Of a stretch of 64,000 nt of DNA, positions 1,764-20,740 are shown piece by piece; positions within the stretch are counted from its first letter, which is position 1; each line of letters starts with the position of its first letter. Where the stretch lies: positions 116,461 through 180,460 of IMG/VR virus record IMGVR_UViG_3300032294_002877. One strand, given 5' to 3'. The notes beneath the pieces are model-generated. The model was given only the letters and a program-made list of their open reading frames with translations, did no database searches and was not told the DNA's origin. The DNA is from a virus. Both the position numbers and the translations under genes were made by a program.

Positions 1764-2769
1764 AGAAGATATAACTAAAAATTTTGGCGATAATATTGTT
1801 TTAACCGGTAATGCAATAGTAGACAAAAAAGTTCTCACTATACCTGTTAGTCCATCTCTAGATATTATTCTTAATGGAGGGATACCAGAAGGTAGTTTCG
1901 TTATATTAACTGGACAGCCAAAAAGCGGAAAAACTACAACATCACTAGATTTTGCTGCTAATGCTCAAAAATTAGAATATGCACACGGCTCCTTCAAAGA
2001 CGGTAGACAGGTATACTATCTAAATATTGAAGGTAGATTGAAAAAGAGAGATCTTGAGGGCATACCAGGACTTGATCTAACAAGATTTCATGTGATAGGA
2101 AGTCAACAAGGTAAAATTCTACACGCAGAAGAATACCTACAGATAGGCGAAAAAATCATTAATGAGGTTCCAGGATCGGTTGTTATTATAGACTCATATT
2201 CTGCGCTATGCACAGAAGCTGAGATCACTAGCGATATGGATAAAATGCAAAGAGCAGATGGAGCAAAATTACTAGCTAAATTCTGTAGGAAAGTAGCAAA
2301 TGTTATACCCGTAAATCAAAATATTGTAATAGGTATTACTCATTTAATGGGTAACCCAACAGGCTATGGGGCTGAATTTAAAGAAAAGAGCGGTCAGGCT
2401 ATAGCGTATCAGACAGATATTAAATTACGAGTAAAAACTTTCAAGCCTTGGACTTTGAGTGCAGATAATACTCAGATAGGACAAGAAATAGAGTGGCAAG
2501 TAATATGTTCGGCATTAGGCCCTCCTGGAGGTACTATTACGTCTTATCTCAGATATGGCCAAGGCATAGATAAATATATGGAAGCCATATCGTTGGCCTC
2601 TGACCTCGGTTTAATTCAAAAGGGTGGAGCATGGTATACTCTTGTTAATACAAAGGATAAGCCAAAGTTTCAGGGTACAGAGAAGATACGAGCATTTTTA
2701 TTGGAAAACCCAAGCGAATATGAGAATTTAGTCGTAAGTATTAAACAAACTATGGGAATTAAATGCTGA
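1753..2769 (+). CDS. RecA/UvsX-like recombinase
   Basis: A strand-exchange ATPase of the RecA/UvsX type, 338 aa, expected to form filaments on ssDNA during replication-coupled recombination. Visible are a Walker A motif GQPKSGKT (residues 54-61), a Walker B strand VVIIDS (about 143-148, preceded by small hydrophobics), and the RecA-type C-terminal core signature LRYGQGIDKYMEAI followed by GLIQKGGAWYTL. It is close in length to bacterial RecA (about 350 aa) but lacks its long acidic tail. ATG 1753 overlaps the previous gene, and its stop overlaps the nuclease start at 2763. The neighbouring helicase, primase and nucleases support a recombination-replication role. Confidence 0.88.
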   Translation: MTIKEDITKNFGDNIVLTGNAIVDKKVLTIPVSPSLDIILNGGIPEGSFVILTGQPKSGKTTTSLDFAANAQKLEYAHGSFKDGRQVYYLNIEGRLKKRDLEGIPGLDLTRFHVIGSQQGKILHAEEYLQIGEKIINEVPGSVVIIDSYSALCTEAEITSDMDKMQRADGAKLLAKFCRKVANVIPVNQNIVIGITHLMGNPTGYGAEFKEKSGQAIAYQTDIKLRVKTFKPWTLSADNTQIGQEIEWQVICSALGPPGGTITSYLRYGQGIDKYMEAISLASDLGLIQKGGAWYTLVNTKDKPKFQGTEKIRAFLLENPSEYENLVVSIKQTMGIKC

Positions 2770-3185
2770 TTAAAGATCTGGATAACTTAGGACATACTTG
2801 GCATATTACAGGACATATATCCAAAGGACGGCTGACGAATAAGTCTAGCTTGCATTTGGCCGCCCGAGAGGTTATAGTATCGGTGTTCCCAACGCTACAA
2901 GTTCTTGAGGAAGTAACAATACCTCTCAGGAGGTCTGAGACTTTATATCTAGACTTCTATCTGCCTTTAAAAAAGATGTGCATAGAAGTGCATGGAGAGC
3001 AGCATTATAAGTTCACACCATACTATCACAACAATATGTTGGCATTTTTAAAATCTCAAAAAAGAGATAGAGAAAAAGAGGAGTGGTGTTCTATAAATTC
3101 AATTTCATATATAGTATTCCCTTATGATGAAACTCCAGAACAATGGAAACAAAGGATAATGAGCGATGACACAAAAAACAACTAA
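2763..3185 (+). CDS. PD-(D/E)XK / Vsr-like nuclease
   Basis: A 140-aa single-domain nuclease candidate. The core reads YLDFYLP then MCIEVHGEQHYKF, the D...E-x-H/D-G-x-x-H pattern of Vsr/DUF559-type PD-(D/E)XK folds: the Asp of LDFYLP and the Glu of IEVHGEQH would bind metal. A later basic helix (KSQKRDREKEEW) and a strand (SYIVFPYDE) also fit the fold. It overlaps the recombinase stop by 7 nt and the next gene by 20 nt, so a role in recombination or repair intermediates is plausible. It lacks the DNA-binding repeats usual in homing enzymes. Exact substrate unknown. Confidence 0.65.
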   Translation: MLIKDLDNLGHTWHITGHISKGRLTNKSSLHLAAREVIVSVFPTLQVLEEVTIPLRRSETLYLDFYLPLKKMCIEVHGEQHYKFTPYYHNNMLAFLKSQKRDREKEEWCSINSISYIVFPYDETPEQWKQRIMSDDTKNN

Positions 3186-6654: not shown

Positions 6655-7437
6655 ATGCTAATTTTAGGAATATCAGGAAAGAAACAATCCGGTAAAACAA
6701 CATCCGGTAACTTTATTTTATCTGTGTTTATGACTAATTTAAATATTAGCAAAAAAATACATATAGACAATGATGGACAAATAGTTATCTCCGATCTTTT
6801 CGGAAATGAACAGTATGCTGGGGTATTCGATCTTGCTAAGAATATCAACAGTACAGACTATCTTATACAAAAAGCAATAGATACACTAAATCCACATGTT
6901 AAACTATATAGCTTTGCAGATCCGCTCAAACAAAACATATGTATGGATATGCTAGGATTATCATATAATCAATGTTATGGTACTGATGAAGATAAAAACA
7001 CATTAACATCAATACGGTGGGAAAACATACCAGGATATAATACATCTTCTAAATACGGATCGCATGATCCTAGCGGATTCATGACCGCGAGACAAGTAAT
7101 GGAAATCGTTGGTACTAATATTTTCAGATCAATGAAAAAAGACGTATGGGTCAACGCAACACTAAATAAAATTGCCAAGGAAAAACCTAAACTAGCGATT
7201 ATTACAGATTGTAGATTTCCTGACGAAATCACAGCTATAAAAAATCAAAACGGAAAAACAATAAGACTAACAAGATCAAAGTTTATTTCTGATCACGAAA
7301 GCGAATTAGTGCTAGATAAAGATAGATACGATTGGTCTAATTTTGATTTTATTGTCGAAAACAGCGAAACAAGTATATATGATCAATGTATCGAGTTACA
7401 AAACATTTTAACACAATTATCTAAAGCGACATCATGA
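6655..7437 (+). CDS. Deoxynucleoside monophosphate kinase
   Basis: It is predicted to phosphorylate dNMPs to dNDPs to supply phage DNA synthesis, like T4 gene 1 kinase. The N-terminus GISGKKQSGKTT is a P-loop (G8-T15). A mid-protein segment (LYSFADPLKQNI, then MTARQVMEIVGTNIFR) and the late strand LAIITDCRFPDEITAIK followed by basic residues (TIRLTRSKF) match the dNMP kinase and related phage adenylate-kinase-like family. At 260 aa its length is typical. ATG 6655 lies 3 nt after the primase stop, and its stop overlaps the next ATG by ATGA. Confidence 0.8.
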   Translation: MLILGISGKKQSGKTTSGNFILSVFMTNLNISKKIHIDNDGQIVISDLFGNEQYAGVFDLAKNINSTDYLIQKAIDTLNPHVKLYSFADPLKQNICMDMLGLSYNQCYGTDEDKNTLTSIRWENIPGYNTSSKYGSHDPSGFMTARQVMEIVGTNIFRSMKKDVWVNATLNKIAKEKPKLAIITDCRFPDEITAIKNQNGKTIRLTRSKFISDHESELVLDKDRYDWSNFDFIVENSETSIYDQCIELQNILTQLSKATS

Positions 7438-8477
7438 TAGTAACATATTTTCGTAGTTCTTCGTATAATACCCATTCTATGTGTGAGCAGCAGTACTTTG
7501 CTGAATACGTCTTGGGGTGGCGAGGTCTTTCCGGACAAAAGGCCGATAAAGGCACTATTGTGCATAAAGTTTTAGAGATTTTAGCCGTGATAAAAAAGGC
7601 TCTTCAAGATAAAATTACTAATGTAGAAGATGATATTATTGGTAAAATAGACTGTAATAAATATGATTTAGATAATATTATTAAGTCTGTATATAAGTAT
7701 TATTCAGAAGCGAACGCTCATCATAAGTGGTCTCAGAAAGACTACAAAGATTGCCATGCATGGGTCTATAAGGCTATAGAATTTAATAATGGGATGTTTG
7801 ATCCAAGGAATCGGAACATATTGTGCCCAGAGCAACATTTTGATATAGAGATCAAAAAACCCTGGTCTGCGTATTCTTACGACACAGATGAGGGGAAATT
7901 AGAAGGATATTTAGCCATTAAGGGCACAATAGATTTAATCACACTATTAGATTCAAATACCATAGAAATTATTGACTGGAAAACCGGTAGAAGACTGGAT
8001 TGGGCAACCGGTCAAGAAAAAACACAAGAGAAACTGGAAAATGACCCTCAACTAAGAATATATCACTATGCTATCAGTCATCTTTATCCCGAAATAGACC
8101 ATATCATATTTTCTATCTATTTTATTAATGATGGTGGTCCGTTCTCTATTTGTTTTGATAAATCTGATTTGCAAAAAACAGAAGATATGCTACGCAGAAA
8201 ATTTGAGATTGTCAAAAACACTAAGCGTCCCAAACTTAATAAAAGTTGGATGTGCAATAAATTATGTCATTTTGGTAAAACAACATTTGAAAACACTGCG
8301 ATTCAGCCACAAATAGAATATAGAGATAATCAAATTTGTAAGACCGGATCTGTAATGACTAAATGCGAACAAATAAAACACGATATGGACTTGCACGGCA
8401 TGGATGCTGTGGTAAACTTATACAAAAATCCTGGTCACTCGTTTGGTAAATACAAAGCACCCGGAAGCACAGAATGA
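7434..8477 (+). CDS. RecB/Cas4-like PD-(D/E)XK exonuclease
   Basis: A 347-aa nuclease of the RecB/PDDEXK_1 type. It begins SSYNTHSMCEQQYF, the usual S-x-x-x-x-x-x-C-x-x-x-Y entry, then GTIVHKVLE (the family His), a GTIDLI Asp strand, and IEIIDWKTGRR, the ExxxDxK-type core. A C-terminal set of Cys (MCNKLC, later ICKTG and TKC) together with the N-terminal Cys may hold an Fe-S cluster as in Cas4 and AddB; this is inference. No CRISPR array or Cas1 is present, so a role in DNA end processing with the RecA-like protein is more likely. It overlaps the kinase stop by 4 nt. Confidence 0.75.
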   Translation: MIVTYFRSSSYNTHSMCEQQYFAEYVLGWRGLSGQKADKGTIVHKVLEILAVIKKALQDKITNVEDDIIGKIDCNKYDLDNIIKSVYKYYSEANAHHKWSQKDYKDCHAWVYKAIEFNNGMFDPRNRNILCPEQHFDIEIKKPWSAYSYDTDEGKLEGYLAIKGTIDLITLLDSNTIEIIDWKTGRRLDWATGQEKTQEKLENDPQLRIYHYAISHLYPEIDHIIFSIYFINDGGPFSICFDKSDLQKTEDMLRRKFEIVKNTKRPKLNKSWMCNKLCHFGKTTFENTAIQPQIEYRDNQICKTGSVMTKCEQIKHDMDLHGMDAVVNLYKNPGHSFGKYKAPGSTE

Positions 8478-8487
8478 CCCCCTATTT

Positions 8488-8495
8488 AAAGGAGA
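8488..8495 (+). promoter_or_regulatory. Strong ribosome binding site for the polymerase leader ORF
   Basis: AAAGGAGA lies 9 nt before ATG 8505. It decides that translation of the polymerase gene begins at ATG 8505 and not at the TTG 8570 of the main frame, which has no ribosome site and would lose the LHVHS motif. Confidence 0.7.
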
Positions 8496-8504
8496 CAGAC
8501 TGAG

Positions 8505-8543
8505 ATGGACGTGAATAAAAGGTATGTGCCTTTACACGTCCAT
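8505..8543 (+). promoter_or_regulatory. RNA hairpin covering the polymerase start codon
   Basis: ATGGACGTG (8505-8513) and CACGTCCAT (8535-8543) are perfect 9-nt reverse complements. Inside them AAAGG (8518-8522) pairs with CCTTT (8529-8533) around a six-base loop. The start codon is in the lower stem and the ribosome site lies just upstream. The T4 polymerase gp43 represses its own translation by binding a hairpin at its initiation region, so a similar control is possible here. Confidence 0.55.
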
Positions 8544-10399
8544 TCCTAGGTGAATCTCATTATTCACTTTTGGATGGACTTTCAAAACCCTCGCAGATAG
8601 CAGAAAGATGCGTCAATATTGGCGTAAACTCCTGCGCACTTACTGATCATGGAACCATATCGGGATGTGTTCAATTCTATCAAGAATTAAAAGCTAAAAA
8701 GATTAAGCCTATTCTTGGTTGTGAGCTATATTTATGTCATCAAAATGCCACAATAAAGACTAAGGACAATTCATCCCTAAGTCATTTCATAGTTTTGGCT
8801 AAAAATTTTGCCGGTTGGAAAACACTGATCAAGATAGTATCTGAAGCCAATAAACCAAATAAATTTTATCATAAGCCAAGATTAAGTATGGCTGAGTTAG
8901 CAGAATATTTAGACGGTAATATTATTGGGTTCTGTGGACATCTAGGATCATATTTGTCCAATATAATAGAAAATAAAGACGGGTCTGAATCAAAGAAGTT
9001 GGGTATAGATTTTATCTCACAGATGAATGATATTTTTGGTAAAGGCAATTTCTTTTTAGAGTCTCAGCTAATGGACCAACAGCACAATCCTGCTCAAGTA
9101 CAACTAACAGAATACATAAGAAACTTAGGTAGTGCGACAAATACAAAAGTAATATGCACTCCCGATGCTCATTATTGTGAGAAAAGCGATGCTGTTGATC
9201 AGCGCATACTCCTATGCAACAATCTAAAGACTACTCTTGTTAATATAAATAAGAGATTATTAGATAATGAAGATGTTCCGATGTCGTGTTTTTTCAGATC
9301 GGACAACTATCATATTTTATCGCCAGAAGAGATGATAGATATTCATACAGAGGAAGAAATAGATAATACAAATTATCTTAACTCATTATGCGAAGAATAC
9401 TCCATTCTTAGCAAACCATTACTTCCTCCCTTCTCTTGCCCAGACGGATACGATCCAGATGAGTATCTTAGGGAACTGTGTCGCAAAGGCTGGAGAGAAA
9501 AAATATCTAGTGTTATTGCTGAAAATGAGCAACAAGAATATCTTGATAGAATCAAATACGAACTAGAAATTTTACAGGGTGCCGGGCTTAGTAGTTATTT
9601 TTTGATTGTTCAGGATATAGTCGAGTATGTTCGTCAACAAAATTGGCTTCCGGGTGTCGGTAGAGGTAGTGCTGCCGGATGTCTGGTGTCATATTTAATC
9701 GGAATTACTAATATTGATCCAATCAAGTATAACCTTCTATTTGAAAGATTCTATAATGTTGGAAGAAATTCAGCTGATAGAATCTCAATGCCAGATATCG
9801 ATGTTGACGTTCCGATCAACAAACGAGAGCTGATCATAGAATACATAAAAAATAAATATGGTCAAGAAAAAGTATCTCAGATGATAACATATAATACTAT
9901 GAAGGGTCGCGGTGCTCTAAAAGAAGTTCTACGAGTATATGATAATATAACTTTTGAAGAGATGAATAAAATAACCAAAAATATACCTGATGAGGCTAAA
10001 ATAGCGGACGAATTACAAGAGATGAAAGAAGATACTGGCGAATCCTCGATCATACGCTGGGCATTAGAAAATAATGTTGACAAACTCAAAGAGTGGTGCT
10101 ATATTAATACTGATGGCACCCTGGCTGGGCCGTTGTCAAAAAGGTTTGAGCAGGCTATTCGTTTAGAGGGAACTAAATCTAATCAATCCAAACATGCGGC
10201 TGGAGTTGTGATATCTAGTCAAGAATTATCGAGTGTTTGTCCGATGGTTTATGATAGCAAAAATGATCAAGCAATAGCTGGTATGGAGATGCAAGATTTA
10301 GAAGCGATTGGTGTAATCAAGTTCGATATTTTAGGTATCGCTTTATTAGACAAAATGATGAACATATCAGACGTACTAAAAAATGGAGACTCTTTATGA
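8505..10399 (+). CDS. dnaE: DNA polymerase III alpha (DnaE-type), N-terminal subunit: PHP and palm; frame interrupted near its 5' end
   Basis: It is the N-terminal half of a DnaE-type replicative polymerase. ATG 8505 opens MDVNKRYVPLHVHS and reaches TAG 8547-8549; the rest is open in another frame to 10399 and reads on from HYSLLDGLSKPSQIAERC. Joining Ser (TCC 8544-8546) to His (CAT 8558) by an 11-nt hop gives HVHSHYSLLDG, the normal PHP start. That model has 627 residues, with palm carboxylates in PDIDVD (D427, D429) and KFDILG (D604). A -1 shift would give a four-residue insertion instead. The fragment ends after the third catalytic Asp; fingers and C-domains are encoded at 11256-12884. If no recoding occurs, this is a broken gene or an assembly error. 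Confidence 0.72.
8548..8569 (+). promoter_or_regulatory. Hairpin at the frame junction of the polymerase gene
   Basis: AGGTGAAT (8548-8555) can pair with ATTCACTT (8562-8569) through eight pairs, one of them G-U, leaving a six-base loop. The TAG stop (8547-8549) is at the foot of the stem, directly after codon TCC. The TCT landing codon candidate (8555-8557) is at the loop. The layout recalls the T4 gene 60 bypass site, where the stop also sits at the base of a hairpin. Confidence 0.5.
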
Positions 10400-10575
10400 T
10401 TAAAACATTTGCAGAATTACCGGTTGGTGCTAGATTTTCGGTAGATAATATTGAATATATAAAAACAGAAACAATCAGAGTTAGCTGCTGTCAAAGCATA
10501 AATGCTGAACAAGTAGCCAATGCGTCAGTTAAGAACTTTTTTGCAGACGATAAAGCGGTAAATATTAATGCCTAA
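10396..10575 (+). CDS. Small phage protein between the polymerase halves, 59 aa
   Basis: An ORF from ATG 10396 (ATGA overlap with the polymerase stop) to TAA 10573-10575 encodes 59 residues. It opens MIKTFAELPVGARFSVDNIEY and contains VSCCQSINAEQVANA. This FxxLPVGxxF ... YIKT ... pattern resembles a small beta-rich protein common in tailed phage genomes; no function is known to me. Its last 8 nt overlap the exonuclease ATG 10568, so it is translationally locked between the two genes. Confidence 0.6.
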   Translation: MIKTFAELPVGARFSVDNIEYIKTETIRVSCCQSINAEQVANASVKNFFADDKAVNINA

Positions 10576-11263
10576 TTTCCAAAAAATTTGTGTCTTTGAT
10601 CTGGAAACGGACGGATCGAATCCAGACAAGTGTAGTCCTGTACAAATAGCGGCTGTGATGGTTGATCCATTGTCTTTGGATATTGTTCCAAATTCAGAAT
10701 TCAATATTAATCTCAAACCAGAAGCTATTGAGGACAATCCTGAATATGCATATGCAGATAGCGATGTGTTAGACTTTCATGCTAAAGTTAGGGGATCTTC
10801 TAAGCAGGAGATTTTGAACGAATGGAAAGGATATCAGAAACAGGATCTAGGATGGAAATTATTTGTTTCGTATCTAGAGATGTATCATATCAGATCCGAT
10901 AAAAAATCTTGTTTTACGGCTCCTATTGCTGGTGGATTTAATATAAATAGGTTTGATCTAAGAATTATAGATAGGCTTAGCGTGAAATATAATAATCTAA
11001 ATAAAGAAGGTAGAAGCTCCTTATTCTATCCTAGAGATGTTATAGATGTAATGAATATGTTATTTTATTGGTTTGAAGGCAATAATGAGCTCAAGAACTA
11101 CACACTAGATAATCTTAGAGATTACTTAGGATTAAGCAAAGAAGGGGCTCATGACGCATTGAAGGACGTCAAAGATACGGCCCAGATACTTGTAAGGTTT
11201 CTAAAGTTACACAGAAATTTATCCAAGAAAGTAAAATTTAAGGGATCGTTTGTTAATGTCTGA
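10568..11263 (+). CDS. DEDDh 3'-5' exonuclease (DnaQ/epsilon-like)
   Basis: It is the probable proofreading exonuclease for the split polymerase. Motif I is VFDLETDG (D11, E13), followed by a strand VQIAAVMVD. A central region with GFNINRFDLRIIDRL supplies motif II (N-x-x-x-F/D). Motif III is AHDALKDVKDT (H195, D200), the DEDDh form. At 231 aa it is close to the catalytic domain of DnaQ (about 180 aa plus). Its gene lies exactly between the two pieces of the DnaE gene and overlaps both neighbours (8 nt each), so coordinated synthesis of all subunits is likely. In PolC enzymes the exonuclease is instead fused into the polymerase. Confidence 0.85.
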   Translation: MPNFQKICVFDLETDGSNPDKCSPVQIAAVMVDPLSLDIVPNSEFNINLKPEAIEDNPEYAYADSDVLDFHAKVRGSSKQEILNEWKGYQKQDLGWKLFVSYLEMYHIRSDKKSCFTAPIAGGFNINRFDLRIIDRLSVKYNNLNKEGRSSLFYPRDVIDVMNMLFYWFEGNNELKNYTLDNLRDYLGLSKEGAHDALKDVKDTAQILVRFLKLHRNLSKKVKFKGSFVNV

Positions 11264-12884
11264 ATACTTTGTTTTTGACTGCGGATGCAAATTCCGTGTT
11301 TTGGATAACAGCGGAGAATTTCCTCTGATAGATTTTTCTCCAAAATTAGAGAATATTAATTTATCATGTTCTAGAACCTGGGATCTGATTAGTTCTGGAA
11401 ATACTAAGGGTTGTTTTCAGTTAGAGTCTAGATTAGGACAAATGATGGCTAAAAAATTAAAGCCAGAGAATATAGAACAACTCTCGGCCTTAATTGCTGT
11501 GCTCAGACCAGGAACATTGGAGGCCATACGAGACGGTAAAAGCGTCACCAATCACTATATAGATAAAAAGAACGGTCTTGAGTCTATAGACTATTTCCAT
11601 ACTGCTTTAGAGCCTATTCTAGATAAAACGTATGGAGAAATGATATATCAAGAACAAGCGATGGAAATTGCACAAACCATAGCGGGCTTCGATCTAAAAG
11701 AAGCGGACATGTTACGTAAAGCTATTGGTAAGAAAAAACCCGAGGAAATGGCCAAATTGAAAAACAAATTCATAGATGGATCTGTGAAGCAAAATATAGT
11801 CACGGAATCACAAGCAGAAGAAATTTTCGGATGGATTCAGAAAAGCCAACGATATAGCTTTAATAAATCGCATTCTGTTAGTTATGCTATTAATGCATAT
11901 GTATCTGCGTATGCAAAAGCTCATTTTCCGAGAGTTTTTTTTGCTTCTTATCTAAAATTTGCTAAAGACAAAATAGACCCTCAAAGAGAAATTAAAGAAT
12001 TGGTTAGAAATGCTAATGAGATGGATATTGGAGTAAGAACACCAGATTTCAGGAATCTAAACAGGTTCTTTCTGATTAAAAACAAAGAGATCTATTTTGG
12101 ATTAACCGATATTAAAGGTGTCGGAGACTCTGTATATAAAAAAATAATAGATCTATGTAAGGATATAGATTTATCCAAAGCTAGCTGGCTAGACATTCTA
12201 TTTAAAATATTATTGAATATTAATTCTACTGCGAGCAAAGCACTGATAAGCAGTGGAGCTATAGATTATTTTCATAAAAATAGAACAGAAATGCTATTTG
12301 AGTATGAGGTAGTATCTTCTTTTACTAAAAAAGAAATAGAAAAACTAATTGCTCTATATGAACAAGATCATAATATATCAGATTTAAATAAACTAATAGA
12401 ATTAGGTATTAATGGTTCTATAGCGAATAAAAATAGAATAGAGATTTTTAAGAATTTACTAAAATCTTTACGTCATCCTCCGTATTCACTAACGGATAAA
12501 ATAGAGTGGTTGTCTGATTCTGAAAATTCTTTACTAGGAGTATCAATAACTTGTTCGAAGCTAGACTCATACGATATAGAGATGACTAATACTAATTGTA
12601 AAACTTTTAAGACGACTCTATTATCTGATAAGATTGTTATAGCAGGAGAGATAACGAATATAAATGTTGTTAAAACAAAGACTGGTAAAAATCCGGGACA
12701 AGAGATGGCTTTTATAAGTATAGAGGATCAGACAGGCATACTGGATTCAGTCATAATGTTTCCGGAGCAATGGTCTAATTTCAAATCTCATTTATTCGTT
12801 GGAAATGTTCTGATTTTTGTAGGGAATAAGGCGAAAAACAAGGACGGTCTTATAGTTGAAAAGTGTTTTGTTCCGCGAACTTGA
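11256..12884 (+). CDS. dnaE: DNA polymerase III alpha (DnaE-type), C-terminal subunit: fingers, HhH and OB domain
   Basis: It is the second half of the DnaE-type polymerase, 542 aa. Residues 1-45 contain FDCGCKF and a later Cys, a possible zinc site. The fingers begin TWDLISSGNTKGCFQLES, matching DnaE, followed by LSALIAVLRPG, and YGEMIYQEQAMEIAQTIAGFD with ADMLRKAIGKKK and SFNKSHSVSYA. The C-terminus has GLTDIKGVGDSV (helix-hairpin-helix) and an OB-fold (VIAGEITNINVVKTKTGK). ATG 11256 fits better than TTG 11250 and overlaps the exonuclease stop by 8 nt. Together with the N-terminal piece the total is close to full-length DnaE (about 1160 aa). Confidence 0.85.
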   Translation: MSEYFVFDCGCKFRVLDNSGEFPLIDFSPKLENINLSCSRTWDLISSGNTKGCFQLESRLGQMMAKKLKPENIEQLSALIAVLRPGTLEAIRDGKSVTNHYIDKKNGLESIDYFHTALEPILDKTYGEMIYQEQAMEIAQTIAGFDLKEADMLRKAIGKKKPEEMAKLKNKFIDGSVKQNIVTESQAEEIFGWIQKSQRYSFNKSHSVSYAINAYVSAYAKAHFPRVFFASYLKFAKDKIDPQREIKELVRNANEMDIGVRTPDFRNLNRFFLIKNKEIYFGLTDIKGVGDSVYKKIIDLCKDIDLSKASWLDILFKILLNINSTASKALISSGAIDYFHKNRTEMLFEYEVVSSFTKKEIEKLIALYEQDHNISDLNKLIELGINGSIANKNRIEIFKNLLKSLRHPPYSLTDKIEWLSDSENSLLGVSITCSKLDSYDIEMTNTNCKTFKTTLLSDKIVIAGEITNINVVKTKTGKNPGQEMAFISIEDQTGILDSVIMFPEQWSNFKSHLFVGNVLIFVGNKAKNKDGLIVEKCFVPRT

Positions 12885-19485: not shown

Positions 19486-19953
19486 ATGAAAAATATTATA
19501 AAAGACTTAGGCATCATAGATATCGTTTTATCCAATGATAAAGAATCAATGGATATTATTAATTTTGCAAAAGAGTATTATGCAAAAAATCCATATAGTC
19601 ATGTTTGTATATTTAATAGTTTTTCTCAATTAGTAACATCTTCTGCTGTTCCGATACTACATCTAAGTCAAGCTAAATTTTTCTATGGTAGTATTATTGC
19701 AACTGATATAGATTCTTTAGAGATGTGTATAGATTTTCCTAATGTAAATAAAATAATATTTTTTGCTCAATCTATTCCTTGGGCTAATGAATTGAGTGAA
19801 TACTCTCGATGGAATAAGTTATTTGAATCCGATAATCTAGAAATATTAGCACAAAACCAATACATATACGACATATTAGATATATGCTGGAAAACACCTA
19901 TAGGTATATCAGAAAGGTTGGATTATGAGTCAGTATCCAAAATCATACAATAA
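19486..19953 (+). CDS. Unknown phage protein, 155 aa
   Basis: A compact protein that looks like a single alpha/beta domain: DIVLSNDKESMDIINFAKEYYA, then SHVCIFNSF and VPILHLSQAKFFYGSIIATDID, a segment I associate with small phage proteins found beside glycosyltransferases, though I cannot name a family. The last 29 nt overlap the homing-type nuclease gene, suggesting that gene was inserted or fused at this boundary. Confidence 0.45.
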   Translation: MKNIIKDLGIIDIVLSNDKESMDIINFAKEYYAKNPYSHVCIFNSFSQLVTSSAVPILHLSQAKFFYGSIIATDIDSLEMCIDFPNVNKIIFFAQSIPWANELSEYSRWNKLFESDNLEILAQNQYIYDILDICWKTPIGISERLDYESVSKIIQ

Positions 19954-20740
19954 CTTGACGGATCCGGAAAAATTGTCTCTGATCTCAAAACTATATACCG
20001 AAGAAAATAAAAGTTTTGCAGATATAGCTTCGTTACTAGAAACTTATCCCAATAAAATTAGAAGAGATGCTATATCTCTAGGCATACCTATAAGAAATAA
20101 ATCCGAAGCACAAAAAAACGCACTCAGTTCTGGTAAACATAAGCATCCTACAAAGGGACACTCCAGAGACAACGAGACAAAAAGCAAAATAGGACTTGGG
20201 GTTATGAAGTCTTGGGAGAATCTAACAACACAAGAATTAGAAGAAAGAAAAGAAAAAAGCAAAGAACAGTGGGATAGTTTAGACCAAAATGCAAAACAGA
20301 ATTTGATAAAAAAAGCCAATGATGCTGTAAGAGTAGCTAGTAAATTAGGATCCAAACTAGAAAAATTCATACTCAACAAACTAATATCAGATGGATACAA
20401 AGTAGATTTTCACAAAGAGCAGACGCTATCAAATACCAAGTTGCAGATCGACCTGTTTCTTCCTAAAATAAATACCGCTATAGAGATAGATGGGCCTTCT
20501 CATTTTTTGCCTGTTTGGGGTGATGACGCTCTTACTAGAAACAAAAGATACGACAACAAAAAACAAGGATTGATCTTAGGTAAGGGTTATGTGTTGATAA
20601 GAATTAAGCAAACCAAAGATTTTTCAAATACTAGGGCATTATTAATATATAATGAATTAGTCAAGATATTACAAAGTATCGAGTCAAATTTTCCAGAACC
20701 TGACGATAGAAACTATACCATAGAGGACACAAATGGCTAA
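19925..20740 (+). CDS. Homing-endonuclease-like protein, Vsr/PD-(D/E)XK nuclease with HTH and NUMOD-like motif
   Basis: A 271-aa protein with an N-terminal HTH (KLSLISKLYTEENKSFADIASLL), a modular DNA-binding stretch (GHSRDNETKSKIGLGVMKSWEN) like NUMOD3, a charged helix, and a C-terminal nuclease core: E in KLEKFILNKL, D in LQIDLFLP, AIEIDGPSHF and later GYVLIRIKQ. This layout matches free-standing homing nucleases of phages, where the nuclease core is Vsr-like. It overlaps the previous gene by 29 nt and the next by 8 nt. No intron or intein is associated. Its insertion point between sugar and recombination genes is typical for mobile genes. Confidence 0.65.
   Translation: MSQYPKSYNNLTDPEKLSLISKLYTEENKSFADIASLLETYPNKIRRDAISLGIPIRNKSEAQKNALSSGKHKHPTKGHSRDNETKSKIGLGVMKSWENLTTQELEERKEKSKEQWDSLDQNAKQNLIKKANDAVRVASKLGSKLEKFILNKLISDGYKVDFHKEQTLSNTKLQIDLFLPKINTAIEIDGPSHFLPVWGDDALTRNKRYDNKKQGLILGKGYVLIRIKQTKDFSNTRALLIYNELVKILQSIESNFPEPDDRNYTIEDTNG

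Follow-up and report, generated by a model that had tools for sequence, protein, structure and literature searches.

We describe a phage dnaE gene whose start is split between two reading frames and is, in our reading, translated by programmed ribosomal bypassing. The start would be part of a homing-endonuclease cassette and would constitute a counterpart of T4 gene 60/mobA that arose independently and has a far shorter gap. Judged from the sequence, we assign this reading a probability of about 0.86. The interruption belongs to a large family of uncultured phages.

An interrupted dnaE start in a large phage

The DNA analysed is a window of 64,000 nt, comprising bases 116461-180460 of a 180-kb virus contig. 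That the record stems from a large phage follows from the proteins it encodes: rIIA-like and NrdA-like proteins, a DNA ligase, a UvsX-like recombinase, a DnaB-like helicase and a primase. In the window, dnaE opens with the ATG at 8505 and runs for 14 codons up to TCC (8544-8546), where it meets a TAG (8547-8549); the DnaE reading picks up again in another frame past TCT (8555-8557). Re-reading of the sequence confirmed the original prediction in all coordinates of both ORFs, the take-off and landing codons, the TAG and one hairpin (8548-8555/8562-8569), and likewise in its ribosome site ahead of the 14-codon ORF (Table 1). Unlike the interrupted dnaE with its Shine-Dalgarno sequence, the gene in uninterrupted relatives usually has a start that overlaps the upstream stop codon. 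The PD-(D/E)XK nuclease gene is the neighbour of dnaE in most gapped and many contiguous loci.

Table 1. Features of the interrupted dnaE start and its surroundings, in window coordinates
Feature	Position	Strand	Basis
PD-(D/E)XK nuclease gene upstream of dnaE	7434..8477	+	Pfam PF12705
27-nt spacer; site of an HNH endonuclease gene in relatives, absent in the window	8478..8504	+	sequence, locus comparison
Shine-Dalgarno AAGGAG of interrupted dnaE	8489..8494	+	sequence
First ORF of dnaE, MDVNKRYVPLHVHS, with stop TAG	8505..8549	+	sequence; same in 49 distinct elements
5' arm of hairpin H1, ATGGACGTG, begins at the start codon	8505..8513	+	perfect 9 bp in 41/49; compensatory change
3' arm of hairpin H1, CACGTCCAT, ends directly 5' of the take-off codon	8535..8543	+	pairing, folding
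5' arm of helix H3, GTCCATTC; extends H2, exclusive with H1	8538..8545	+	frozen codons, folding, pair counts
Proposed take-off codon TCC	8544..8546	+	TCT or TCC in 49/49 elements
Putatively bypassed sequence, stop codon to landing codon, 11 nt (8-12 nt in relatives)	8547..8557	+	comparison
5' arm of hairpin H2, begins within the stop codon, inside the putatively bypassed sequence	8548..8555	+	covariation with 3' arm
Proposed landing codon TCT	8555..8557	+	TCN in 31/49, C at position 2 in 48/49
Second ORF, remainder of the DnaE N-terminal half: PHP and Pol III alpha domains	8558..10399	+	Pfam PF02811, PF07733
3' arm of hairpin H2, coding (TCA CTT, Ser-Leu)	8562..8569	+	covariation
3' arm of helix H3, GGATGGAC	8572..8579	+	frozen codons, folding, pair counts

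Several other features were seen in and around these genes. DnaE of the window is encoded in two halves (8505-12884; PHP and Pol III alpha, then finger, HHH and OB), separated by a gene for a DnaQ-like exonuclease, and L042 has the same arrangement. In L042 (1575-3866), L052, L064 and L077 the gapped dnaE is further broken by an apparent split intein after GPGRG (CFVPETNIKM..., ...VEGIGVHN-S). In L112 (3481-4740) the ORF of the N-terminal half ends at 420 residues with an unrelated tail and continues about 1.2 kb later, which is possibly another intron or mobile insertion. Two ORFs of the window (2763-3185 and 19925-20740) resemble Vsr-type nucleases by eye (EVHG/EIDG motifs) and gave no match in Pfam.

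The interruption is shared by 49 distinct elements

What the original prediction overlooked above all was the conservation of the interruption in 49 distinct relatives. Searching viral contigs at the protein level gave 38 relatives of DnaE, most of them uninterrupted (...PLHVHSHYSLLDG) and about a third interrupted like the window. Scans with DNA patterns found the interruption in 74 contigs from 63 metagenome datasets, which represent the 49 distinct elements. These scans demanded a stop codon; hence a separate, stop-blind census was made of dnaE starts at loci located solely by protein similarity or a downstream motif. It yielded 136 distinct starts (115 contiguous, 20 gapped and one with a variant motif), among which no other kind of interruption occurred, and in all 20 gapped starts a stop directly follows the take-off codon. 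The locus that fits worst, L106, has a 7-nt gap, TGA at the landing position and an endonuclease remnant upstream, and was excluded from the 49.

A scan of the genome collection gave one genuine match, L119 from a Chitinophagia MAG, the others being chance matches without dnaE; this one contig binned with a Chitinophagia genome is the sole indication of a host. No cultured member of the family was found in the collection searched, where the best cultured DnaE match stays below 35% identity, and a search of open-access papers found no description of the element.

Gap lengths and codons point to a hop

Counted from the stop codon through the end of the landing codon, the convention used for T4 gene 60, the gap measures 8, 9, 10, 11 or 12 nt in 2, 12, 16, 17 and 2 of the elements, respectively, and is spread over the three frames (14/16/19 elements). 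A -1 shift would serve only the gaps of 8 and 11 nt, including that of the window, readthrough only those of 9 and 12 nt, and a +1 shift only those of 10 nt; moreover, the +1 frame is closed by TGA in L045, L051, L119 and L062. Due to the gaps in all three frames no single frameshift or readthrough accounts for the interruption, and these were rejected as a common mechanism. The sole rule valid for all 49 elements is a jump to the codon that immediately precedes [H/M/E][Y/F/D]SLLDG. Joining the two disjoint, often out-of-frame ORFs in this way restores HVHS-x-[YF]SLLDG, with D in place of Y/F in one element. In 33 of 47 cases the residue behind the landing codon (H/M/E) agrees with that of the nearest contiguous relative, compared to a mean of 23.7 after shuffling (7 of 20,000 shuffles as good).

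The stop, which can be TAA, TAG or TGA, always adjoins the take-off codon. Take-off occurs only at TCT and TCC, for which a single serine tRNA usually suffices; in contiguous relatives several serine and threonine codons occupy this place. As landing codons TCT, TCA, ACT, GCT, TCC, GCC and TTT were seen. They are identical to the take-off codon in 12 elements and share its first two bases in 31. The C at the second position is kept almost throughout, as a re-pairing serine tRNA would require; with ACT, GCT or GCC (17 of 49) at best two positions pair with this tRNA. None of the 10 tRNA genes of the record, the remainder of which was included as L350-L352, is a tRNA-Ser that could act as a phage-borne helper. 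L309 (13910-13984, landing TTT) and L106 (3724-3759, minus strand, landing TGA) are divergent and pair poorly with a serine tRNA; they may be decayed elements or follow different landing rules.

The original prediction of a hop from TCC to TCT without an extra residue is supported by the gaps in all frames, the covariation described below and the 49 relatives; the hop itself and its efficiency we infer from these sequences. Only 13-14 codons precede take-off, and a KKYK signal 25-30 residues from the P site is not found; neither is a gap of about 50 nt as in T4, the range here being 8-12 nt.

Two predicted, mutually exclusive RNA folds at the take-off site

Of the structures, the original prediction recognised H2, which is real, and missed both H1 and the pairing that extends H2. 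H2 pairs the gap with the coding sequence 3' of it, and its arms covary (AAGTG/CACTT, GAGTG/CACTC with stop TGA, AGAGAA/TTCTCT, AGCGAA/TTCGCT). With their own partners the arms form a helix of 6.78 bp on average; shuffling the partners gave 5.41 bp and never did as well in 20,000 trials, and a covariation test of H1 and H2 together gave 0 of 500 as good. H1 joins the start-codon region to the nine bases before the take-off codon and is present in all 49 elements with 7-9 bp; its seventh pair switches between G-C and A-U, and in L227 the stem is replaced by ATGGCAG/CTGCCAT. The third helix, H3, in which GTCCATTC pairs with GGATGGAC, would lengthen H2 and is mutually exclusive with H1. It is supported mainly by codon freezing, as GTC CAT TCY and TTG GAT GGA are nearly fixed in gapped alleles but vary freely in 105 contiguous alleles, together with one-sided wobble changes and a parallel change in L227. 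A stem-loop at take-off that includes the stop codon, as known from T4, is present in H2 and H3, with covariation. The element of the window folds with -27.1 kcal/mol, and none of 200 dinucleotide shuffles folds as well (z = -5.0).

A sequence-blind search of 3.1 Mb for the two hairpins returned 43 dnaE sites and 5 others, compared to 3 in the reversed control, so that other genes give no evidence of this structure. The H1 pattern had a single match in the genome of the window, at the dnaE site.

The gap is associated with a homing-type endonuclease

An HNH-type endonuclease gene abuts the interrupted dnaE upstream in 9 of 57 gapped loci and in 0 of 128 contiguous loci (Fisher p = 1.6e-5, an optimistic value as the loci are related). 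The protein, of about 240 residues except for one truncated copy, contains a helix-turn-helix and a segment rich in cysteine; the last codons of its gene overlap the ribosome site and start of dnaE. PHROGs places it in phage endonuclease families; comparison with Pfam gave sub-threshold HTH-type matches only, and with solved structures no match. In the collection searched its close relatives occur only at gapped dnaE, some as decayed remnants (L045, L069, L106). In 42 of the 57 gapped loci the ordinary nuclease gene instead of the HNH endonuclease lies upstream. A second, distinct HNH-like gene (RID..GY..N type) is located farther upstream in some gapped loci (L041:597-1157, L051:884-1408).

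On a quickly built tree of 145 DnaE proteins, calculated from the columns after the gap only, the gap is scattered: it must have been gained or lost 27 times or more, and well-supported branches force 18 of these changes. L173 and L168 are contiguous alleles whose sisters, L058 and L066, are gapped. Both keep the cassette ribosome site and the leader, and the gap is missing exactly between TCT and CAT. H1 and H2 are decayed in L173, where GTCCATTC and TTGGATGGACT are still in place; in L168 they are altered as well. From their sequences both look like scars of precise gap loss and show which protein the gapped allele must make; less probably, the order was the opposite, with the leader acquired first and the gap later.

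Discussion

We propose that the ribosome reads the 14 codons and halts with peptidyl-tRNA(Ser) on TCC and the stop codon in the A site, where H2, starting inside the stop codon, would hinder termination. The peptidyl-tRNA could then be released, skip the 5' arm of H2 and re-pair where the loop begins, with the NCN landing codon. Translation would resume to give HVHS-HYSLLDG, with YVPLHVHSHYSLLDGLSK as the expected junction peptide. The timing or driving force of this move probably comes from H1 and the alternative helix H3. In our presumptive assignment of the helices, H2 would take the role of the A-site stem-loop of T4 and H1 that of the 5' stem-loop. Since H1 overlaps the sequence inside the ribosome at take-off, it would fold fully only with forward movement, and this folding could pull the mRNA as proposed for T4.

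The cassette would consist of the HNH homing-type endonuclease gene just upstream of dnaE and the gap, which lies in the conserved PHP motif at what is presumably the target of the enzyme. The enzyme presumably cleaves dnaE, and the gap would shield the new allele from this cleavage. The cassette may be gained by homing, after which the endonuclease decays while the bypass stays. We read the window copy, which has lost its endonuclease, as the last stage of this course.

A different view of the same region is that the 14-codon ORF is a leader peptide that terminates, with DnaE initiating separately downstream, e.g., at TTG 8570, so that no fusion is made and the structures regulate initiation. 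This codon is indeed TTG in 46 and CTG in 3 of the 49 elements, and such control could be exerted by a structured 5' region whose start codon lies in a stem. However, no ribosome site precedes the TTG, and the HxHS metal motif, kept in contiguous relatives, would be lost. The NCN landing codons, the lineage-matched H/M/E residues, the preservation of the PLHVHS leader by synonymous changes and the exact gap loss in L173 would be left unexplained, and we regard separate initiation as unlikely. Hairpin-directed RNA processing could remove the 8-12 nt from the mRNA before translation; precise removal and a conserved RNA structure would fit, and no Rfam family matches the element. Such processing does not predict a constant stop codon, TCY take-off or NCN landing codons, which makes it very unlikely. 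To our knowledge, there is no precedent for so short an excision in phage mRNA.

Frameshifting or stop readthrough that differs between lineages and adds 3-4 residues to the PHP motif would be open to part of the family, as the -1 frame can be read in 11-nt gaps, including that of the window, and gaps of 9 and 12 nt are in frame. It would need three mechanisms for one conserved element, in addition to the closed +1 frames, and the motif is free of extra residues in 105 contiguous relatives; we consider it highly improbable. The original prediction had also raised a template-switch or amplification artefact, and a lone mutant with uninterrupted close relatives. The observation behind this was correct, as part of the gap is an inverted copy of downstream sequence, and many relatives are uninterrupted. 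Yet 49 distinct versions from 63 datasets share the interruption with compensatory changes, covarying structure and gap lengths in all frames, so that a sequencing, amplification or template-switch artefact or a lone mutation has practically no probability left.

Compared to these explanations we favour bypassing, although some features speak against it: the landing codons that pair poorly with the tRNA, the short nascent chain and the 42 gapped loci with the ordinary nuclease gene upstream. T4 gene 39 was split by an endonuclease insertion, and gene 60 contains a bypassed insert of 50 nt that may protect against the nuclease (PMC3014915, PMC5009743); a stem-loop over the stop codon in the A site blocks termination and a 5' stem-loop folds behind the sliding ribosome (PMC11194080). 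Both systems have an early coding gap in a phage replication gene, a stop directly after the take-off codon and within the take-off stem-loop, a 5' stem-loop, an upstream endonuclease gene (mobA in T4) and relatives with an uninterrupted gene (PMC3014915, PMC5009743, PMC11194080). With a homing-type endonuclease gene adjoining the site in several relatives, the likeness that was originally pointed out has become closer. In contrast to the 50 nt of gene 60, the dnaE gap is short and variable in length, covering all frames, and uses serine codons that are often imperfectly matched instead of identical glycine codons. Since the nascent chain has only 14 residues and no KKYK, a peptide signal of the T4 type is ruled out. 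Gene 60 encodes a topoisomerase in one lineage, whereas the element described here lies in DnaE of dozens of lineages, and no sequence relation between the two is apparent.

Other systems share single traits with the dnaE element. The byp elements of Magnusiomyces mitochondria are also short bypassed insertions, often with landing on two of three base pairs (PMC5009743), but they occupy 81 sites in mitochondrial genes and seem independent of mRNA context, while dnaE offers one site with strong context in phages of bacteria. The putative bypass in the terminase gene of Streptomyces phage Hau3 likewise concerns a short gap in a phage gene (PMC5009743); it is linked to a rare UUA codon and is possibly regulatory, unlike dnaE with its stop, hairpins and endonuclease. 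Synthetic stop-hops in E. coli cross a stop between similar codons over a short distance (PMC5009743), whereas the dnaE element is natural and conserved.

A review of 2010 called the T4 gene 60 bypass apparently unique (PMC3014915), and another of 2016 stated that counterparts, perhaps shorter, had long been presumed (PMC5009743). Until now gene 60 has been nearly the sole natural bypass in bacteria and their phages. The dnaE element probably represents a second, independently evolved and widespread class, with a hop of 8-12 nt off a hairpin arm, two-of-three-base landing, two exclusive RNA folds and no long nascent-peptide signal, that a dedicated homing endonuclease has carried into replicative polymerase genes of phages. 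With dozens of natural examples that differ in gap length, codons and stems, the rules of hopping become readable from evolution and testable with short reporters. The combination of a homing endonuclease with a bypassed gap suggests a recurrent strategy, by which a mobile element can sit inside an essential gene whose product is still made.
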